Shown here piece by piece: positions 1,160-32,217 of a stretch of DNA of 64,000 nucleotides. Below the pieces are notes generated by a model, which saw nothing but the letters and a program-made list of their open reading frames with translations, did no database searches and was not told the DNA's origin. The DNA is from Cetobacterium sp. NK01. Lineage in GTDB: Bacteria > Fusobacteriota > Fusobacteriia > Fusobacteriales > Fusobacteriaceae. The position numbers were made by a program, and so were the translations under genes. How positions within the stretch are numbered: the first letter of the stretch is position 1; each line of letters starts with the position of its first letter. Location: NCBI RefSeq assembly GCF_024506395.1, contig NZ_JANIBO010000002.1:248001-312000 (forward strand), given 5' to 3'.

Positions 1160-1741
1160 CATTTTTTCCATTAATTTTAAATCTTCAAAAGTATTAATGT
1201 TGAAAAAACTGCTTGAAATTTTATTAAAATTTTCAAACTCATTAATATTTATCCAATTTATTTTTAAATTTTTAAAAATATTAGCTATTTTAAACTCTTT
1301 ATTATTAATACAATTTATTATTTCATCCATACTACTTTTTTTATACAATGCACATAACGGTTCTCTAAAAGAGTTATGAATAGGTATAGAAATATCATAA
1401 TCACCTTTGAATCTTCCTAAATATTCTAAAAACTCTTCTTCTAAAAATGGTGTATCACAAGATAAAATAAGACACTCTTCATTTGTGGCATTTTTTAATC
1501 CTGTTAAAATTCCTCCCAATGGACCTACATTTTTTATTTCATCCTTTATAACCTTTAAATTATAACCTAAATATTTTTCTGGGGAATTAGATATTATTAT
1601 AATTTCTGAAAATTTGGAAAGTTTTTCAATAATAATTTCAACAAATGTTTTTCCATTAAATTTTAAAAAACTTTTATCAATATAATTTAATCTACTTCCT
1701 TTTCCACCTGCTAATAAAACTACACTTTTATCATACTTCAT
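1157..1741 (-). CDS. mobA: Molybdopterin guanylyltransferase MobA
   Basis: A 194-residue nucleotidyltransferase that adds GMP to the pterin cofactor, giving the bis-MGD form needed by formate dehydrogenase. The N-terminus has the nucleotide-binding signature LLAGGKGSRLN, with Lys in DKSFLKFNG. NVGPLGGILTGL and LILSCDTPFLEEE (metal-binding Asp) are diagnostic for MobA. Length is normal. It is the third gene after formate dehydrogenase and hydrogenase, five bases beyond the hydrogenase stop and with no clear Shine-Dalgarno, so it is probably translated by coupling. Context says it services the upstream formate dehydrogenase; the metal may be W rather than Mo given tupAB next door. Confidence 0.9.
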   Translation of the reverse strand: MKYDKSVVLLAGGKGSRLNYIDKSFLKFNGKTFVEIIIEKLSKFSEIIIISNSPEKYLGYNLKVIKDEIKNVGPLGGILTGLKNATNEECLILSCDTPFLEEEFLEYLGRFKGDYDISIPIHNSFREPLCALYKKSSMDEIINCINNKEFKIANIFKNLKINWININEFENFNKISSSFFNINTFEDLKLMEKM

Positions 1742-1746
1742 ATTTT

Positions 1747-3459
1747 TTACTTTTTAGAGTATGTAGTATGTAAAATATGGTGGCTTTTATGACCACAAGG
1801 TTCTTTCAAGTAGTTTTTATAAAGGCTAGATACTTCTTCATTTTCATGTGATTTTCGTAAATTTGAAGTTGAATCAAATAGATACATTCCATTCATTCTA
1901 GATTTTCTTATTTCTAAATTATCTGGGATAGGTGCTCCACCGCCACTTATGCATCCACCATAACAAGCCATAACTTCTATAAAATCAAATGAAACCTCTT
2001 TATTTATTATTGCATCTAAAACTTTTTTTGCTGAACCTATTCCATTTATAACTGCAACTTTAATTATTTTTTCTCCTAAATCTATCTCTGCAGACTTTAC
2101 ATTTTCAAATCCTCTTAAGTTCTGAAACTCTATTTGATTTAATTGTCCATTTGTTAAAATATGACTTACTGTTCTTAGTGCCGCTTCCATTACACCACCA
2201 GAAGATCCAAATATCCTTCCAGCACTAGATCCTAATCCCATAAAAGAATCATAGGTTAAATTATTTGGCATTAAATTAAAATCTATGTTATTCATTTTTA
2301 TTAACTTAGCAAACTCTCTTGTTGTTATTACTAAATCTACATCTTTAATTCCATTTTTTTGCATCTCAGCTCTTTCACTTTCACCTTTTTTTGCTGTACA
2401 AGGCATAATTGAAACAACGTATATATCCTCTTTAGGAATATTTAATGTGTCTGAGTAATATGATTTTGCTAATGCACCAAACATTTGCTGAGGCGATTTA
2501 CAAGTTGATAAATTTTCTATAAAACTTGGATAAGATTGTTCCACATAATTTACCCATCCTGGACAACATGAAGTAAACATTGGTAATTTACCATCACCTT
2601 TTATTACTCTTTGAATTAATTCGCTTCCTTCTTCCATTATTGTTACATCTGCAGAAAAATCTGTACTAAAAACTTTGTCAAAGCCTAGTTTTTTTAAAGC
2701 TCCTACCATTTTAGATGTTACATCTATTCCTGGAGCAAGAAAAAACTCTTCTCCTATAGTATGCTTTATTGCAGGAGCCATCTGAACAACAATATGTTTT
2801 TCAGAGCTTTTTAATAACTTATTTAATTCTGTTACACTATTTTTCTCTGTCAAAGCCCCTACTGGACAGACTTTAACACATTGACCACAAGAAACACATT
2901 TACTTTCTTCCAATGTTTTTCCATCTTTTATAATTATCTCTTTGACTCCATTTAATTCAACAACTTCATAAATCTCAAGTCCTTGGACTTTTTTGCAAAC
3001 AGCTACACACTTTTCACATAAAATACATTTATTCATATTTCTAGTTATTCCTGAGGAACCGCTATCTAGTGGGTATTTTTTTATATTCTCTAAATTCCTA
3101 TTTATTATATTATATTCAAAAGATATATTTTGTAATTCACAATCCCCTTTTGATTTTTCACAAGTTAAACAATCATTAGGATGATTTTTCATAATATTTT
3201 TTAAAATTCTTTCTCTTTCTTTAATTATTTTTGGAGTTCTTGTTTTTATAACCATTTTATCTTTAGGATAAGTTTCACAAGATTTTAAAGTTTCTCCATC
3301 ACATTCTACAATACATATTCCACAAACTTTTTGAGATCCTAAATCATCATGATGGCAAAGAGTTGGTATATTTATACCTAACTCTTTACATCTTTCTAGT
3401 ATTGTTTGTGTAGATTTAATTTCTGTTAAAATCCCATCAATTTCTATTTGAAAATTCAT
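1747..3459 (-). CDS. [FeFe] hydrogenase, monomeric CpI-like (M3 type)
   Basis: A 570-residue iron-only hydrogenase, about the length of clostridial CpI. Modules in order: N-terminal [2Fe-2S] domain (Cys near residues 35-60), His-Cys3 [4Fe-4S] motif (HPNDCLTC...C, about 93-108), two ferredoxin-type [4Fe-4S] clusters (CILCEKCVAVC about 143; CVSCGQCVKVCP about 188), then the H-cluster domain. All three H-cluster signatures are intact: TSCCPGW (about 295), MPCTAKKGE (about 351) and VMACYGGCISGGG (about 494). It reversibly couples proton reduction to ferredoxin or directly to the formate dehydrogenase encoded 10 bases upstream, whose N-terminus has the same set of Fe-S modules. A GGAGG site precedes the ATG. 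The maturases HydEFG are not in the window. Confidence 0.93.
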   Translation of the reverse strand: MNFQIEIDGILTEIKSTQTILERCKELGINIPTLCHHDDLGSQKVCGICIVECDGETLKSCETYPKDKMVIKTRTPKIIKERERILKNIMKNHPNDCLTCEKSKGDCELQNISFEYNIINRNLENIKKYPLDSGSSGITRNMNKCILCEKCVAVCKKVQGLEIYEVVELNGVKEIIIKDGKTLEESKCVSCGQCVKVCPVGALTEKNSVTELNKLLKSSEKHIVVQMAPAIKHTIGEEFFLAPGIDVTSKMVGALKKLGFDKVFSTDFSADVTIMEEGSELIQRVIKGDGKLPMFTSCCPGWVNYVEQSYPSFIENLSTCKSPQQMFGALAKSYYSDTLNIPKEDIYVVSIMPCTAKKGESERAEMQKNGIKDVDLVITTREFAKLIKMNNIDFNLMPNNLTYDSFMGLGSSAGRIFGSSGGVMEAALRTVSHILTNGQLNQIEFQNLRGFENVKSAEIDLGEKIIKVAVINGIGSAKKVLDAIINKEVSFDFIEVMACYGGCISGGGAPIPDNLEIRKSRMNGMYLFDSTSNLRKSHENEEVSSLYKNYLKEPCGHKSHHILHTTYSKK

Positions 3460-11791: not shown

Positions 11792-13489
11792 ATGAAATTT
11801 TTTAATAAAAAGTATGTTAGCATTTTAGCTTCTTTACTTTTAACAACAACTTTAGTTCAAGGAAAAGAATTTATTTCGTCAGCTAAGGGATATAATGGGG
11901 ATATCAAAGTTAAAGTGGATATTAATAATAACGAAATTAAAAATATTGAAATTTTAGAAGAAAAAGAAAGTGATTTTACAAGAGATGGAATGAAGTCTAT
12001 AATTTCAGATATTATTGAAACTCAATCAACTAAAGTTGATAATGTAGCAGGTGCAACTTCTACTAGTGTAGGCTTAAAAAGAGCTGTTGATAGAGCTATC
12101 AAAGAATCAGGAGCTAAGCTAACTCCTAAAGAAAAAAAAGTTATAGTTTATAATGATGTTACTACAGATGTTGTTATTATAGGTGGAGGTGGAGCTGGTC
12201 TTACTGCTGCTATTGCCGCTAAAGATAATGGTTCTAATGTTATTTTAGTTGAAAAAGCCGCTATTCTAGGTGGTAATACTAATTATGCTACAGGTGGCCT
12301 TAACGCTGCTGAAACATCCGTTCAAAAGTCTAAAGGTGTCAATGACTCCGTTGATATTTTCATAGAAGATACTATGAAAGGGGGAAAAAATACTAATGAT
12401 AAAACTTTAGTTACTAAAATGGCTGACTCTTCAGCTGAAATTGTAGATTGGTTAATGGATAAAGGCGCTGATTTATCTGATCTTGGAAGAATGGGTGGTC
12501 AAAGTGTTAATAGAACTCATCGACCTACTGGAGGTGCTCCTGTTGGTCCTAATGTTGTTGCCGCTCTTTCTGAAAGTGCTAAAAAATCTGGAGTTGATAT
12601 TAGACTATCAACTTTTGCTGAATCTATCATCTATGATGGTAAAGCTGTTAAGGGAATAGTTGTTAAAGCTCCAACTGGTCAAAAATATACAATCAATTCT
12701 AAAGCTGTTATTATTGCTACAGGTGGTTTTGGAGCAAATTCAGAAATGATTGTTGAAAATGTATCATCTTTAAAAGGATTTGGAACTACAAACCATAAAG
12801 GTGCAACTGGAGATGGTATTACTATGGCTAAACCTCTTGATGTAGATTTAATTCATATGGATCAAATCCAAACTCATCCAACAGTTATTCCTACTAATAG
12901 CGTTATGATAACTGAAGCTGTTAGAGGGAATGGAGCAATTCTTGTTAATAGAGATGGAAAAAGATTTGTTAATGAACTAGATACTAGAGACGTTGTTTCT
13001 AAAGCTGAGCTTGCACAAAAAGGTGAAAGTGCCTATCTTATGTTTGACGAAACTGTTAAAAAAAGTTTAAAAGCTATCGATAGTTATGATAAAAAAGGTT
13101 ACTTAACTAAAGGTGATACTCTTTCTGAACTTGCTAAAAAATTAAATATTCCAGCTACAGAATTAGAGAAAACTTTCTCAAAGTATAACGAAAGTGTTAA
13201 AGTAGGACAAGATCCTGAATTTGACAGACAAAATTTACCTACTGCTCTTACTGAAGGACCTTTTTATAGTGTTGAAGTAGCTCCAGCTGTTCATCATACT
13301 ATGGGAGGAATTAAAATCAACGAGAAAGCTGAAGTTTTATCTAATAACACCCCTATAAATGGACTTTTTGCTGCTGGAGAAGTTACTGGTGGAATTCATG
13401 GTTCTAATAGATTAGGTGGAAACGCTGTTGTTGATATAACTGTTTTTGGGAAAATAGCTGGAGAAAACGCTAGTAACTTTTCTAAATAA
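11792..13489 (+). CDS. Secreted FMN_bind/FAD flavoprotein, fumarate reductase-like
   Basis: A 565-residue exported flavoprotein. It starts with a signal peptide (LASLLLTTTLVQG). An FMN_bind domain follows (to about residue 105), with VAGATSTS as the site for covalent FMN attachment to Thr by ApbE. Then comes the FAD-binding fumarate reductase/succinate dehydrogenase-like domain (VVIIGGGGAGLTAAIAA, GGNTNYATGG, THRPTGGAP, HPTVIP, TEAVRGNG, VHHTMGGI, GSNRLGGNA). The catalytic His and Arg positions look intact and no haem CXXCH motif is present. It would reduce fumarate or a related alpha,beta-unsaturated acid (urocanate, acrylate types exist) outside the inner membrane. The ATG at 11792 follows GGGAGGAA; the longer upstream frame would add a hydrophobic leader before the ribosome site. 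Confidence 0.85.
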   Translation: MKFFNKKYVSILASLLLTTTLVQGKEFISSAKGYNGDIKVKVDINNNEIKNIEILEEKESDFTRDGMKSIISDIIETQSTKVDNVAGATSTSVGLKRAVDRAIKESGAKLTPKEKKVIVYNDVTTDVVIIGGGGAGLTAAIAAKDNGSNVILVEKAAILGGNTNYATGGLNAAETSVQKSKGVNDSVDIFIEDTMKGGKNTNDKTLVTKMADSSAEIVDWLMDKGADLSDLGRMGGQSVNRTHRPTGGAPVGPNVVAALSESAKKSGVDIRLSTFAESIIYDGKAVKGIVVKAPTGQKYTINSKAVIIATGGFGANSEMIVENVSSLKGFGTTNHKGATGDGITMAKPLDVDLIHMDQIQTHPTVIPTNSVMITEAVRGNGAILVNRDGKRFVNELDTRDVVSKAELAQKGESAYLMFDETVKKSLKAIDSYDKKGYLTKGDTLSELAKKLNIPATELEKTFSKYNESVKVGQDPEFDRQNLPTALTEGPFYSVEVAPAVHHTMGGIKINEKAEVLSNNTPINGLFAAGEVTGGIHGSNRLGGNAVVDITVFGKIAGENASNFSK

Positions 13490-24857: not shown

Positions 24858-26024
24858 TTATTTTTCATCAAATTCTAATTTTATTCTATCAATTAATTTT
24901 TCATCTTTTAATAGTTTAATCCCTGTTAAAGTCAATGCTAACACCGCTTCTTCCATTCCCTTATACGCTCCGTCCTCTATAGTGCACATAGCTAACTCTC
25001 TACTGTGACTAATTACATCTTTATATAATGGCATATATGGATGAATAGTTGGACAAACATGACTTACATCCCCTGCATCTGTAGATCCACTATCTTCTGA
25101 ATCTTCAATTTTTTTTATTCCAATATCTTTTAGACTCTCTTCATAAATACTCATTAATGTTTTATTAGTTATTAAATCTAAAAAACTTGTTTCATAATTT
25201 TCTATTTCTAATTTTGTTCCCGATGATATTGCAGCACCTTTTGCACAATTCTTAACTTTTTCTAAAAGAATATCTAGCTCTTTCTTATTTCTTGATCTAA
25301 CATAAAAATTAGCTATAGCTAAATCTGGAATTATATTAGCAGCTTCTCCTCCATTTGTTATAATTCCATGAACTCTATCGCTTGGAAGAATCTGTTGTCT
25401 CAAAGCATTAATGGTATTAAATAAAGTTATTACTCCATCTAAGGCATTGACACCTAAATGAGGAGATCCAGCTGCATGAGATGTTTTCCCTTTAAATATA
25501 AACTTTAAAGCTTCCATAGCTTGACTTGAAGTACTTCTTAAGTGAATATTTCCACTAGTGGGATGTACCATCATAACTAAATCTACATTTTTAAAAGCTC
25601 CTGCTTTTACCATGGCAACTTTTGCACCATCTGTTTCTTCAGCTGGTGTCCCAATTACTAAAACCTCTCCACCGTAAATATTCACAAACTCTCTTAAAAG
25701 TATTCCTGCAGCGCTACTCGTGACTCCTAAAATATTATGTCCGCATCCATGACCTATTTCTGGTAAAGCATCATATTCAGCTAAATAAGCTATTCTTGGT
25801 CCTGGCTTTTCTCCTATGTAATTTGCTAAAAAGGCTGTTTCTATTCCACAATACCCTTTTTCTATAAAAAAACCATATTTTTGTAATAATTCACAATGTT
25901 TATCTCTAGCTTTAAACTCTTTTAAACCTAATTCTGGATTTTCAAACAAATACTTGTTTAAATCTTTTAATTCTTCAAAAATTTCTGCATATCTCTCTTT
26001 TAATTCCATTATAATTTTTTCCAA
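24858..26024 (-). CDS. M20 family amidohydrolase / peptidase
   Basis: A 388-residue metalloenzyme of the M20D type (AbgB/aminoacylase-like). Visible features are LFENPELGLKEFKA at the start, metal-binding GHGCGHNILG (about residue 95), ETDGAKVAMV with the catalytic Glu region, SHAAGSPHLGVNALDG, and DVSHVCPTIHPY near the end. The dimerisation domain has LEALKFIFKGKTSHA. It hydrolyses an N-acyl or peptide amide. AGGAGGG lies seven bases before a TTG at 26024, which is the better-placed start; the ATG at 26009 is too far away. It is paired with an EutH-like permease 11 bases upstream, which may import its substrate. Confidence 0.9.
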   Translation of the reverse strand: MEKIIMELKERYAEIFEELKDLNKYLFENPELGLKEFKARDKHCELLQKYGFFIEKGYCGIETAFLANYIGEKPGPRIAYLAEYDALPEIGHGCGHNILGVTSSAAGILLREFVNIYGGEVLVIGTPAEETDGAKVAMVKAGAFKNVDLVMMVHPTSGNIHLRSTSSQAMEALKFIFKGKTSHAAGSPHLGVNALDGVITLFNTINALRQQILPSDRVHGIITNGGEAANIIPDLAIANFYVRSRNKKELDILLEKVKNCAKGAAISSGTKLEIENYETSFLDLITNKTLMSIYEESLKDIGIKKIEDSEDSGSTDAGDVSHVCPTIHPYMPLYKDVISHSRELAMCTIEDGAYKGMEEAVLALTLTGIKLLKDEKLIDRIKLEFDEK

Positions 26025-26035
26025 ATTTATCCCTC

Positions 26036-27148
26036 CTAGTTTATTTTAAAACTTTTATTTAAAACAAAGTTATTTTTTCTCTCCTTTTTGTTTATAAACA
26101 TAATTTTAGCTAGATAAATTGCACTAAATCCTGATACTAATTTAGCCACTATAAACGGCAATACATTATCTGGTGATACTCCTGCAACAAATCCCAATTG
26201 CCCTCCAAAGACATAAGATCCTGCAACTGCAAAAGCACTATTTATTATTTTACTATTATTATCCATTTTATTAAATATTCCAAACATAGGAATACTACTA
26301 ACTAAAGAAGCCATAAATCCTGCTGTTCCACTTTCATCTATTCCTAATAATTTTCCCATTCTTCTTAAAGTATTTTTAAAATATTTTTCTATAAAATATA
26401 AAAATGGATATGCTCCACTTAACGTTAAAGCTACTCTAGTTACAACTTTCATACTTTCATCTATAGGATTTAAACCTTCAATAACTGAATATCCAAACAT
26501 CGTCTCAATAATTGTTAATACTAGACCTAAAGTTATTACTATCGTCATTCCTTTTCCAAACCTATCAAATAATTTACATGTTTTTTCTGGAAAGAACCAA
26601 AGTCCTGCACATATTACTCCTGAAAAAATAACCACTGGAATTAAATTATGAATTATCAATACAAGTTCAAGTCCCATTATTATTCCAGCAACTAAACATC
26701 CTAAGGGAATAGTTGCAACCCCACTTAATATTCCTTTTGAAAAATTTTCCTTAGACATATCATCAATAATTCCAAAAGCTACAGGCATAGTAAAAATAAC
26801 CACTGTTCCCAACATCGATCCTAATATAACTCCTGAAAAATCTATTAAATTTTTATTTATTGCTAAGTCTTTTGCTAAAAAATATCCTCCCATGTCTGTT
26901 GCTAAAATAGAATTTATATATATTGATGGATCAATTCCAGTCATAAGATAAAGTTTTTCAACAAAAGGCTTGGAAAATTTTGATATTAAAGGACTTATTG
27001 ATAATATACCTAACATAGCTAGTATTAAAGGACCTGCCACACAAATACCCTCTTGGAACTTTTTTCCATATCCTAATTTATTACCAAAACTCCTATCTAA
27101 TGCTCCTAAAACCGCAAAAAAAGTTAGAATAAAAAATATAACTTTCAA
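26036..27148 (-). CDS. EutH-like permease
   Basis: A 370-residue membrane protein of about ten TM segments resembling the ethanolamine permease EutH. The evidence is GYGKKFQEGICVAGPLILAM, IYINSILATDMGGYFLAKDL, MLGTVVIFTMPVAFGIID and GIDESGTAGFMASLVSSIPM. No other eut genes are present; instead it is followed by an M20 amidohydrolase. The substrate may therefore be an acylated amino acid or amide rather than ethanolamine. It starts with TTG at 27148, placed eight bases after AGGAGG. Confidence 0.8.
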   Translation of the reverse strand: MKVIFFILTFFAVLGALDRSFGNKLGYGKKFQEGICVAGPLILAMLGILSISPLISKFSKPFVEKLYLMTGIDPSIYINSILATDMGGYFLAKDLAINKNLIDFSGVILGSMLGTVVIFTMPVAFGIIDDMSKENFSKGILSGVATIPLGCLVAGIIMGLELVLIIHNLIPVVIFSGVICAGLWFFPEKTCKLFDRFGKGMTIVITLGLVLTIIETMFGYSVIEGLNPIDESMKVVTRVALTLSGAYPFLYFIEKYFKNTLRRMGKLLGIDESGTAGFMASLVSSIPMFGIFNKMDNNSKIINSAFAVAGSYVFGGQLGFVAGVSPDNVLPFIVAKLVSGFSAIYLAKIMFINKKERKNNFVLNKSFKIN

Positions 27149-27239: not shown

Positions 27240-28175
27240 TTATTTTAATACTTTATCTCTAAATAAATCAAAAACCTCTTTTACTGATAAAATTTCATTT
27301 ATTTTCCATGCATCTTTTCCTGCAAAGAAGATTCCTTCTAAAGAGTTTCCTTCATGACCTTTTATTAAACTATCTTTTACGCAAAACTTTCTACTACATT
27401 TTTTTAAACAGCTTGTACATTTCTTAGGTGTTAATTTTTCTTCGTTAATTACCCTTTTTACATATGGAGAAACAATTGCATTAGCAGGAAGACCTGCAGA
27501 ACTCATAATTTGAACTACATCTCCCTCTTTTGAATTCACATATACCTCTTTAAATTCTTGACTCACTTCACATTCATTTGTTGCAATAAATCTACTTCCC
27601 ATTTGAACTCCATCCACACCTAAGGACATCATTCTTTCTGCATCATGAGGAGTGATAACCCCCCCTGCTCCAAACACAGGAATAGAAACTCCATTTACAA
27701 TTTCTTCTACTATATCCCATGAATCTTTTTCAGTTCCTAAGTGTCCTCCAGCATTTCCTCCTTCAACAACAATAGCATCTGCGCCTAATTTTTCAGCAAT
27801 TTTAGCTAATTTTAAACTTGAAACTATTGGAACAATTTTTACTCCTGTTCCCTTTACTGTTTCAAAAATATCTCTTGAAAATCCTGCTCCACATATTATC
27901 ATATCAACTTTTTCTTCTATTGAAACTTTAACAGCTTCTGCAAAATTCGATGCAGCAACCATAATATTAACTCCTAATGCTCCACCTTTTTCTATAATCA
28001 TCTCTTTAGCTTTTCTAATTTCTTCTCTAAACTCGTCAGCTGGAATAGCTGTTCCCGATATAACTCCCACTCCTCCTTGGTTTGCAACAGCTGAAGCTAA
28101 TCTTGACATTGATGCCCTAATTCCCATTCCTCCTTGAATTATTGGTACCTCTATATTTAAATCTCCTATTCTCAC
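27240..28175 (-). CDS. Nitronate monooxygenase / FabK-like FMN oxidoreductase
   Basis: A 311-residue TIM-barrel flavoprotein of the NPD/Nmo family. Evidence is VPIIQGGMGIRASMSRLASA, GGVGVISGTAIP, VEGGNAGGHLG (catalytic His region), VFGAGGVITPHDAERMMSLG and DGVQMGSRFIATNE. It carries an added cysteine-rich stretch CTSCLKKCSRKFC near the C-terminus, unusual for classical Nmo and possibly metal-binding. Reaction: oxidative denitrification of nitronates, or NADH-dependent enoyl reduction in FabK relatives. The start is taken as GTG at 28175, eight bases after TTGGAGG; the longer frame begins upstream of this site. Two tandem dyads lie in its promoter region. Confidence 0.82.
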   Translation of the reverse strand: MRIGDLNIEVPIIQGGMGIRASMSRLASAVANQGGVGVISGTAIPADEFREEIRKAKEMIIEKGGALGVNIMVAASNFAEAVKVSIEEKVDMIICGAGFSRDIFETVKGTGVKIVPIVSSLKLAKIAEKLGADAIVVEGGNAGGHLGTEKDSWDIVEEIVNGVSIPVFGAGGVITPHDAERMMSLGVDGVQMGSRFIATNECEVSQEFKEVYVNSKEGDVVQIMSSAGLPANAIVSPYVKRVINEEKLTPKKCTSCLKKCSRKFCVKDSLIKGHEGNSLEGIFFAGKDAWKINEILSVKEVFDLFRDKVLK

Positions 28176-28195
28176 TAATTTCACCTCCAAGTATA

Positions 28196-28225
28196 ATAAC
28201 ACATGTTATGATAACACATGTTATC
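28196..28225. promoter_or_regulatory. Tandem 14-bp dyads, probable operator of the Nmo-like gene
   Basis: Two copies of ATAACA-CA-TGTTAT, each a perfect 6-2-6 inverted repeat, start at 28196 and 28211 (15-base period). They lie 20 to 50 bases upstream of the Nmo-like start on the minus strand. A dimeric repressor such as MarR or TetR type is likely; no such gene is adjacent. Confidence 0.6.
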
Positions 28226-28259: not shown

Positions 28260-28288
28260 TTGACTTTATATCTTACATAGAGTATAGT
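28260..28288 (+). promoter_or_regulatory. Promoter of the cobalamin riboswitch RNA
   Basis: TTGACT (28260-28265), 17-base spacer, TATAGT (28283-28288), predicting a start near 28295 on the plus strand just before the aptamer. Confidence 0.75.
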
Positions 28289-28309
28289 CATATTAATGTT
28301 AATAATATA

Positions 28310-28460
28310 ACAGGATACATAGATAAGGAAATGAGGTTTGATTCCTCTACGGCCCCGCCACTGTAATTTGGACGAAAGTATTTTGTACCACTGGATTTTA
28401 TCTGGGAAGGTTTACGAGTAGAATGAAAAGAGTCAGGATATTTGTCTTTGTATATTATCT
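28310..28460 (+). ncRNA. Cobalamin riboswitch (orphan)
   Basis: The conserved core of the cobalamin aptamer is present in order: AACAGGATACATAG (about 28308), GAGGTTTGATTCCTC hairpin (28333-28347), CCCGCCACTGT B12-box core (28354-28364), CCACTGG (28388-28394), GGGAAGG (28404-28410) and GTCAGGATA (28432-28440). It has its own promoter. A strong Shine-Dalgarno GGGAGGA follows at 28464, but the only frame behind it is nine codons long. No plus-strand gene follows before the convergent aminopeptidase gene (28640). It therefore either controls a tiny peptide, is a regulatory RNA, or is a relic. Confidence 0.92.
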
Positions 28461-28478
28461 TCGAGGGAGGAATTTATT

Positions 28479-28508
28479 ATGATGAACTTTTTATATTTTT
28501 TTCCTTAA
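28479..28508 (+). CDS. Nine-codon ORF behind the cobalamin riboswitch
   Basis: ATG ATG ... TAA encoding MMNFLYFFP, ten bases after GGGAGG. The ribosome site is among the better ones in the window and lies where a cobalamin riboswitch would mask or expose it. The peptide is hydrophobic. It could be a leader peptide, a micropeptide or the remnant of a lost gene. The other two frames also close quickly, so a simple frameshift does not restore a gene. Confidence 0.35.
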   Translation: MMNFLYFFP

Positions 28509-28549
28509 AGTCGCTATTTCATAACATCATTTTTTTGACTATAAGGAAA
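28500..28549 (+). other. Hairpin overlapping the end of the nine-codon ORF
   Basis: TTTCCTTAAAGTC (28500-28512) pairs with GACTATAAGGAAA (28537-28549) with one mismatch around a 24-base loop. The 5' arm contains the stop codon of the small ORF, so ribosomes on it would open the stem. The rest of 28550-28589 is A-rich and shows nothing else. Confidence 0.45.
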
Positions 28550-28589
28550 GCAAACTAAAAAACTTTTATAAAAAACAAACAAACTTTTA

Positions 28590-28633
28590 AAAGCTCTCTA
28601 ATCTAGAAATGATTGTCTAGAATAGAGAGCTTT
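28590..28633. terminator. Hairpin ending the riboswitch RNA and the aminopeptidase transcript
   Basis: AAAGCTCTCTA (28590-28600) and TAGAGAGCTTT (28623-28633) with an inner CTAGA/TCTAG stem. T-rich tracts follow weakly on both strands. It lies between the plus-strand riboswitch RNA and the end of the minus-strand aminopeptidase gene. Confidence 0.7.
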
Positions 28634-28639
28634 GCTTTA

Positions 28640-30031
28640 TTAAATCATATTTTCAAAAAAAACTTTATATGTTCTATATGTTTCATAAACGTCAAGTTTT
28701 GATGAAACTTCAAATGGTGAGTGCATAGCTAAAAGAGCTGGACCTACATCTATAGTTTTTATCCCTACCTCAGCTAAAAGCATTGCAACAGTTCCTCCTC
28801 CACCTTCATCAACTTTTCCTAATTCTCCAATTTGCCAAGTTATCCCATGGGTATTCAATAAATTCCTTATACTCCAAACATATTCAGCATCTGCATCATT
28901 TGTTCCACTCTTTCCTCTAGCACCTGTAAACTTTGTTACAACTATACCATAGTTTAATTTTGCTGCATTCTGAGCTTCATGAACTCCTTTAAATATAGGA
29001 TCCATTGCTGCATTCACATCTGATGAAAGAGCATTAGAATTCCAAAGAGTTTTTCTTAAATCTAAATCGCTATAATCACCTTTAACTTTACTTATTAGAT
29101 CGCTTGTGAAATATTCTAAATAATTAGATTGTAATCCTGTAGATCCATGAGAGCCAGTCTCTTCTTTATCAGCTAAAAAACAAACTGCTGTTTTTTCTGG
29201 AACCTCTTTTAAATCCAATATCGCTCTTAAAGATGTGTAGCCACATACTCTATCATCTTGACCGTAACCACCAATAAGAGATCTATCTAAACCAATATCT
29301 TTTGCTTTAAACGCAGGAACTAGTTGAAACTCAGCTGATATAAAATCCTCTTCTATCATTCCGTAGGTAGTATTTAATTCCTCCAAGATATGATATTTTA
29401 CTAGTTCTTTTATATCTGCATTTTTTATAGTTGTGGGAATAGATCCAACTATAATCTGCAACTCCTCTCCTTTAATAACTTCAGCTGTTTGTCTTTCTCC
29501 CTGATATTTAGCAGCTAAGTGTGGAAGTAAATCTGGTATTGTAAAAACAGGATCATCTTCCTTTTCTCCAATTATAATATCTTTTTTTTCACCATTTTCT
29601 AATATAACAACTCCATGTAATGATAATGGAATCGAAGCCCATTGATATTTTTTTATTCCACCATAATAATGGGTTTTCATATACCCTAACTCTAATTCTT
29701 CATATAATGGATTTTGTTTTAAATCAATTCTTGGTGAATCTATATGAGAAACAACAAAATTTATTCCCTTTGTTATCTCTTCCTTTCCTATAACTACTAA
29801 AACTAAATTTTTGTCTCTATTTACATAGAAAACTTTATCTCCACTCTTTAACTTTTTCTTTGTACTAGCACATACAAACCCATTTTGTTTTGCTAATTCT
29901 AAACCAAATTTAACATACTCTCTCTCTGTTTTCCCCAAATCCAAAGAGTTTTTATATCCTTGACAAAATTCAAAGATATCATTTTTGTTTAACTTTTCAT
30001 TCTTCCATCCATTTTCTTTTTTTAATAACAT
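28640..30031 (-). CDS. M18 family aminopeptidase
   Basis: A 463-residue zinc aminopeptidase of the aspartyl/aminopeptidase I (M18) family. Visible motifs are VVSHIDSPRIDLK (first metal His and Asp), KYQWASIPLSLHGVV, DDRVCGYTSL, LADKEETGSHGSTGL (catalytic Glu-Glu), ALSSDVNAAMDP and the C-terminal AMHSPFEVSSKLDVYET (metal His). Cytosolic peptide turnover. GGAGGAG precedes the ATG. It is followed on the same strand by nothing before the terminator; yvcK lies 22 bases upstream in the same operon. Confidence 0.93.
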   Translation of the reverse strand: MLLKKENGWKNEKLNKNDIFEFCQGYKNSLDLGKTEREYVKFGLELAKQNGFVCASTKKKLKSGDKVFYVNRDKNLVLVVIGKEEITKGINFVVSHIDSPRIDLKQNPLYEELELGYMKTHYYGGIKKYQWASIPLSLHGVVILENGEKKDIIIGEKEDDPVFTIPDLLPHLAAKYQGERQTAEVIKGEELQIIVGSIPTTIKNADIKELVKYHILEELNTTYGMIEEDFISAEFQLVPAFKAKDIGLDRSLIGGYGQDDRVCGYTSLRAILDLKEVPEKTAVCFLADKEETGSHGSTGLQSNYLEYFTSDLISKVKGDYSDLDLRKTLWNSNALSSDVNAAMDPIFKGVHEAQNAAKLNYGIVVTKFTGARGKSGTNDADAEYVWSIRNLLNTHGITWQIGELGKVDEGGGGTVAMLLAEVGIKTIDVGPALLAMHSPFEVSSKLDVYETYRTYKVFFENMI

Positions 30032-31134: not shown

Positions 31135-32217
31135 ATGAAAAGTAATCATGGAGCAAATCTTCATCAGCTATCTGAAGAACTTGGTATTAATGAAAATAAA
31201 ATTATAGATTTTAGTTCAAATATAAATCCTTTTGGCCTTAGTCCTAAAGGGTTAGAGAACTTAAAGAATAATCTTAATTTAGCAACTATCTATCCTGATC
31301 CTAATTATACAGATTTAAAAGCTAGTATTTCTGAGTATTGTAAATGTAATCCAGAAAATATTATTTTAGGTAGTGGAGCAACTGAATTAATAACTTCTAG
31401 CATAAAAGTTATTAATCCCCAAAATACGTTACTATTAGCTCCTGCATATTCTGAATATGAAAAAGAACTTAAAAATATCAACTCTAAAATCACTAAATTT
31501 TTTTATAAAAAAGAGAATAATTTTCAAATAAATATTGATGATATTATAGCTCTTGTTCAGAAGTCTAATTTTGATATGATTATTATTTGTAATCCTAATA
31601 ACCCCACAGGAACTTTAATTCCTCTTAAAGATATCGAAAAATTATATTTAAATTTTAAAAAACCTATTATGATCGATGAAACGTATATAGAATTCACAGA
31701 CTTTTCAAAAACTTCTGCTATAAATTTAATTGATATATGTCAAGAAATAATAGTCATAAGGGGTACTTCAAAATTTTTTTCAACCCCAGGTATCAGATTA
31801 GGATATGCTATTATTTCAAAAGGAGTTATTTTAGATGCTATGAGTTCTATTCCAAATTTATGGAATATAAATATTTTTGCCGATATTATGGGAGAAGCTA
31901 TGTTTAAAGACTATGACTTTATACGTATGTGTCATAAAAATTTTAAAGAAAACTTCACTTTACTTTATAATGGTTTAAATAAATTTAAAGACTTTAAAGT
32001 TTATAACTCTAATAGTAACTTTATTTTATGTGAAATTCTGAATTCAAAATATAATTCAAATGATCTTTATCATTTTTTATCTAAAAAAGGAATTATCATT
32101 AGAAAAGCTGAATCTTTTGATAATTTAAATAATAATTTTTTTAGAGTTTGTGTACTAACAAAAGAAAATATAGATTTTCTATTACAAGAAATTTATAAAT
32201 TTATACAACAATATTAA
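31135..32217 (+). CDS. cobD: CobD-like threonine-phosphate decarboxylase (PLP aminotransferase fold I)
   Basis: A 360-residue PLP enzyme. The N-terminus HGANLHQLSEELGI...IIDFSSNINPFGLS follows the CobD pattern (HGGN...DFSANINPLG). IICNPNNPTGTLIP, IDETYIEF and the PLP lysine in RGTSKFFSTPGIRLGYAI also favour CobD over histidinol-phosphate aminotransferase. CobD makes (R)-1-amino-2-propanol phosphate for the cobalamin lower-ligand linker. No other cobalamin biosynthesis gene lies nearby, so HisC-like activity remains possible. GGAGGGG precedes the ATG, and the 20 bases around the start are identical to those of mglB. It is followed after 13 bases by a Tsx-like porin. Confidence 0.75.
   Translation: MKSNHGANLHQLSEELGINENKIIDFSSNINPFGLSPKGLENLKNNLNLATIYPDPNYTDLKASISEYCKCNPENIILGSGATELITSSIKVINPQNTLLLAPAYSEYEKELKNINSKITKFFYKKENNFQINIDDIIALVQKSNFDMIIICNPNNPTGTLIPLKDIEKLYLNFKKPIMIDETYIEFTDFSKTSAINLIDICQEIIVIRGTSKFFSTPGIRLGYAIISKGVILDAMSSIPNLWNINIFADIMGEAMFKDYDFIRMCHKNFKENFTLLYNGLNKFKDFKVYNSNSNFILCEILNSKYNSNDLYHFLSKKGIIIRKAESFDNLNNNFFRVCVLTKENIDFLLQEIYKFIQQY

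Follow-up and report, generated by a model that had tools for sequence, protein, structure and literature searches.

To our knowledge, few gene-less cobalamin (B12) riboswitches are known, and those use termination. The EutV dual hairpin with A1/G4 hexaloops is a defining part of EutX and Rli55 (PMC3369931). The mechanism of EutX has been described, and according to a review EutX could sit anywhere in a genome (PMC5821096). In Listeria, a B12 riboswitch controls the antisense RNA AspocR (PMC8079631), and interplay between a B12 riboswitch and a uORF has a precedent in M. tuberculosis (PMC11260477). The gene-less EutX, Rli55, and AspocR and the riboswitch/uORF pairs of M. tuberculosis are already known separately; a conserved gene-less RNA that combines a seemingly translational platform with a mini-ORF is new. 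Here, we describe such an RNA in a window of 64,000 nucleotides from Cetobacterium sp. NK01 (NZ_JANIBO010000002.1, positions 248,001–312,000), to which the coordinates below refer unless a contig is named. Cetobacterium is a genus noted for B12 production in fish guts. Judged by title and abstract, none of the three publications we found that mention both Cetobacterium and riboswitch has Cetobacterium riboswitches as its subject.

The locus is an apparently self-contained transcription unit at 28260–28635 of the plus strand, comprising a promoter, a cobalamin aptamer, a Shine-Dalgarno (SD) sequence, a mini-ORF, a hairpin, and a terminator-like hairpin. It is flanked by a nitronate monooxygenase (NMO) gene (27240–28202, minus strand) and a convergent M18 aminopeptidase gene (28640–30031, minus strand). 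The sigma-70-type promoter, TTGACT-17-TATAGT, was located at 28260–28288; its hexamers alone were no better than chance (3 sites found versus 3.2 expected), but both hexamers and the 17-nt spacing were kept in all five species that carry the module, and the spacer drifted. The aptamer (28296–28463, plus strand) matched RF00174 over the full model (1–189 of 189) with 75.3 bits (gathering score, 31.5), and an Rfam search of the module at a permissive threshold returned nothing besides the aptamer. Next come a P13-like hairpin, UCUUC-GAGG-GAGGA (28458–28471), which contains the SD GGAGGA (28466–28471) and was weak when folded alone (z −1.1), and the nine-codon ORF MMNFLYFFP (ATGATGAACTTTTTATATTTTTTTCCTTAA; 28479–28508). 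The stop codon of this ORF lies in the 5′ arm of a hairpin of 13–14 pairs with one A·A mismatch (about 28499–28550; −11.7 kcal/mol, z −4.1). An A/C-rich low-complexity linker (28551–28589), whose length differs among species, leads to the terminator-like hairpin, which is probably bidirectional and has an interrupted U tail (28590–28633; −23.5 kcal/mol, z −5.5); this is the only such hairpin of the unit and forms its 3′ end. The G-free, Rho-site-like tail was uninformative because G-free runs of at least 40 nt occur 108 times on the plus strand of this AT-rich window.

No plus-strand ORF longer than nine codons was found between the aptamer and the convergent M18 gene. Nor was any gene found under the control of the riboswitch: no B12 gene lies downstream, and the next gene is convergent. 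The preliminary description, which had read the locus as a cobalamin aptamer with its own promoter, a ribosome site, the MMNFLYFFP frame ending within a hairpin, and a terminator without a gene, was correct in each of these elements. Two further features were observed nearby. Two tandem palindromes (ATAACACATGTTAT; 28193–28224) just upstream of the NMO gene, retained whether or not a species has the module, are probably an operator for that gene. A CobD-like class I/II aminotransferase gene (31135–32217), which we take to be of the threonine-phosphate decarboxylase type, lies near the locus and is not under the riboswitch.

As in btuB leaders, the SD sits within a P13-like hairpin immediately downstream of the aptamer. 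The closest aptamers outside the locus precede btuB-like genes in seven relatives (G003, G004, G005, G007, G011, G020, and G031), where they end in a CTTCGAGGGAGGA-type element with the start codon close behind. The SD element CUUCGAGGGAGGA is common to these leaders with small variations and stands directly before btuB there. In the aptamer tree, the module grouped with the btuB leaders, in no resolved order, and not with the five other cobalamin riboswitches of its own genome, two of which precede cbiK-like genes, two btuB-like genes, and one a cobQ-like gene, as we presume from our own reading of the translations. The platform of the module therefore looks translational and btuB-like rather than like a terminator. 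Because this platform is that of the btuB leaders, B12 binding should close P13, hide the SD, and block translation. The second btuB leader of the same genome (L006, at G000:C2:359139–359315, minus strand, and L081) is unlike those of sister species: its aptamer shows complementarity between L5 (CCCCA) and L13 (UGGGG), and its platform is apparently transcriptional since a long leader with a terminator-like hairpin precedes btuB.

Full-length homologs of the module were identified at the same site in four further species of the Cetobacterium clade: G009, G008, and G006 (86% identity each) and G004 (75%). Together with the own genome these make five module species, three of which are very close to one another. 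In G002, G003, and G005 the site has the same flanking genes, and the promoter-to-terminator module is missing as one clean piece; every form seen was either complete or absent altogether. The terminator hairpin is also absent where the module is absent and is therefore part of the unit, not of the aminopeptidase gene. In the aminopeptidase tree, in which some forks were only moderately supported, G004 branched outside the other module species. The distribution is consistent with one ancestral module and losses in G002 and in the ancestor of G003 and G005, a history preferred because it avoids the assumption that the site received an insertion twice.

Fourfold-degenerate sites of the M18 aminopeptidase showed 44–46% divergence between the own genome and G006, G008, and G009. 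Against this near-saturated neutral background, the aptamer carried 7–8 substitutions in 168 positions (4–5%), the 3′ arm of the mid hairpin 1 in 19, and the terminator none in 46, whereas the mid-hairpin loop differed at 8–10 of 24 positions (about 40%), plus indels. In the more distant G004, the terminator stem was kept with two-sided changes (T-A to A-T, T-A to C-G, and C-G to A-T) and the P13 stem with changes on the 5′ strand only. In place of the mid hairpin, G004 has another one, with about 13 pairs, which begins immediately behind the stop codon; no unpaired tail segment was conserved out to this species. Since the aptamer, the hairpin 3′ arm, and the terminator are near-constant and the loop drifts freely, the module is under selection.

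These data also bear on the origin of the unit. A btuB leader that had lost its gene would leave a riboswitch and a start codon, and the aptamer and SD element are indeed of the btuB-leader type, and the mini-ORF might represent the beginning of a signal peptide. The preliminary description had named a relative with an intact gene directly after the riboswitch as the mark of such a deletion scar. No species examined has a gene there: the site is gene-less in all five module species, in the same form, and no intermediate between intact and absent was seen. Given also the strong selection on aptamer, hairpin, and terminator at near-saturated neutral distances, this possibility was largely refuted, and we regard it as very unlikely. 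A module kept in five species is therefore probably a working regulatory RNA, not debris. The earlier proposal of a functional gene-less B12 riboswitch RNA thus gains support from one syntenic site in five species, near-saturated neutral divergence, and clean absence in three species. As far as sequence comparison can show, this is an apparently independent transcription unit without a gene, conserved under selection in five species.

The mini-ORF encodes MMNFLYFFP in the own genome, MMKFLHFFP in G009, MMKFWHFFP in G008, MMRFWHFFP in G006, and MKLFSGFS in G004. The SD, start, stop, and approximate length (8–9 codons) were kept in all five species, whereas codons 3–6 differed from the own genome at 3–5 of 12 bases, nearly all of them non-synonymous. 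Because SD, start, and stop persist while the inner codons change freely, the pattern, drawn from few sequences, is suggestive of selection on translation up to the hairpin rather than on the peptide. A functional hydrophobic micropeptide repressed by B12 would agree with the retention of frame, start, and stop across four species, the eight-codon counterpart in G004, and the fairly conservative character of the substitutions. We nevertheless consider it improbable, as almost all changes in codons 3–6 alter the amino acid, codons 7 to stop also lie within the hairpin arm, and the G004 peptide is largely different.

The preliminary description had compared the locus with EutX and Rli55, pointing to an EutH-like permease nearby and stating that other eut genes were absent. 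The latter does not hold genome-wide: roughly 90 kb from the module, at about 172.7–187.9 kb of G000:C2, the genome carries a eut cluster with EutV, EutW, EutB, and EutH among its members, and the suggested search for EutV found its ANTAR protein match at G000:C2:186544–186690. The permease is present (26036–27148, PF04346), but as a paralog whose neighbour is an M20 peptidase; riboswitch-less species have it next to NMO as well. This pair (24858–27148) lies outside the eut cluster and is kept in the eut-less G002; the substrate of the paralog may not be ethanolamine.

If the module were a sponge like EutX or Rli55, its RNA would bind EutV at an ANTAR dual hairpin and thereby keep this antiterminator sequestered under B12 scarcity. 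EutV and EutB occur in all five module species and are both absent from G002, the nearest species without the module, and EutX could be located anywhere in a genome (PMC5821096). However, a scan for an EutV dual hairpin with A1/G4 hexaloops was negative in all five module RNAs, while the same script, as a positive control, detected one in the eutW-eutA gap of the own genome and of G004, G005, G007, and G008. In the own genome, this gap (L093, G000:C2, about 13000–13130) holds a dual-hairpin antiterminator with loops AAGGUU and AAAGAA that overlaps a terminator and is conserved in the other four. Nor was a B12-dependent terminator found where EutX and Rli55 would have one, between the aptamer and the EutV site; in the module the SD/P13 element and the mini-ORF stand there instead, and the platform is translational-looking. 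Moreover, the association of eut with the module is weak because 8 of the 12 genomes are eut-positive and eut also occurs where the module does not, in G003, G005, and G007. The analogy was therefore not supported, and sequestration of EutV by this RNA seems a highly improbable function.

Control of the M18 aminopeptidase by B12, through terminator read-through or 3′ UTR overlap, was also considered. The unit converges on this gene, its terminator hairpin only ~6 nt away from the M18 stop codon, and a B12 riboswitch antisense RNA exists in AspocR (PMC8079631). The RNA should nevertheless end at ~28640, before the M18 coding region, its platform has no B12-dependent terminator, and three species do without the module. 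We know of no B12 link of any M18 aminopeptidase, which also counts against such control. Antisense or convergent control of this gene is therefore rather unlikely, though not negligibly so.

We propose instead that the module is a regulatory RNA without a gene, gated by B12, and that ribosomes entering at its mini-ORF control the downstream hairpin and the fate of the RNA, a reading to which we give about even confidence. In this model, P13 would close upon AdoCbl binding, making the SD inaccessible. When B12 is low, ribosomes would enter and translate the mini-ORF, and their halt at or within the hairpin's 5′ arm would hold the hairpin open; at high B12, ribosome entry would be shut and the hairpin would form. 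The output would be altered stability, processing, or trans-activity of a roughly 340-nt RNA, not a protein. A further reading, which we hold to be less likely than not, is that translation of a throw-away mini-ORF is the only event controlled by the riboswitch, with B12 gating ribosome entry and the ribosome stopping in the hairpin and thereby toggling RNA structure and activity. If true, a translational riboswitch would have been converted into a switchable sRNA. Complementarity of the tail to the eut, btuB, cbiK, cobQ, M18, NMO, and EutH/M20 transcripts was not better than that of shuffled tails, and a search for conserved genomic complements of the hairpin's 3′ arm returned the locus itself only. 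If confirmed, the model would mean that a mini-ORF allows translational riboswitches to drive noncoding RNAs. The locus is compact and testable, and sister species provide natural knock-outs.

A gene-less B12 riboswitch of a second kind, different in design from the Cetobacterium module, appears to be present in three species of another genus of Fusobacteriaceae (L021, L022, and L067 in G024, G035, and G077; about 1528–1880, reverse strand). There, the cobalamin riboswitch has a terminator-like platform followed by a conserved hairpin (GGGGAACA...UGUUCCCC); no plus-strand gene follows the hairpin, the unit is convergent with a cobQ-like gene, and no EutV dual hairpin was found at these three loci. 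Because this second gene-less design occurs in three species of another genus, gene-less B12 riboswitches may be recurrent in the family.

Compared with known systems, the module resembles EutX of Enterococcus and Rli55 of Listeria in being a B12 riboswitch RNA that lacks a gene, has a promoter of its own, and occurs in a host with EutV and eut genes; unlike them, it lacks the EutV dual hairpin and the B12-dependent terminator, lies outside the eut locus, and has an SD and a mini-ORF. As in AspocR/Rli39 of Listeria, a B12 riboswitch stands ahead of a noncoding transcript, but AspocR is under termination control and is an antisense RNA of 1.4 kb, whereas the module RNA is predicted to stop short of the neighbouring coding region. 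With the B12 riboswitches and uORFs of metE/ppe2 in M. tuberculosis, the module has in common, by prediction, the pairing of a short ORF with a translational OFF riboswitch; there a real gene follows the uORF, and in the module none does. Its closest counterparts are the btuB leaders of Fusobacteriaceae, whose aptamers are 70–83% identical and which carry the same CUUCGAGGGAGGA-type SD element. In those leaders btuB comes directly after the SD, whereas in the module that place is taken by an ORF of 8–9 codons, a hairpin, and a terminator.
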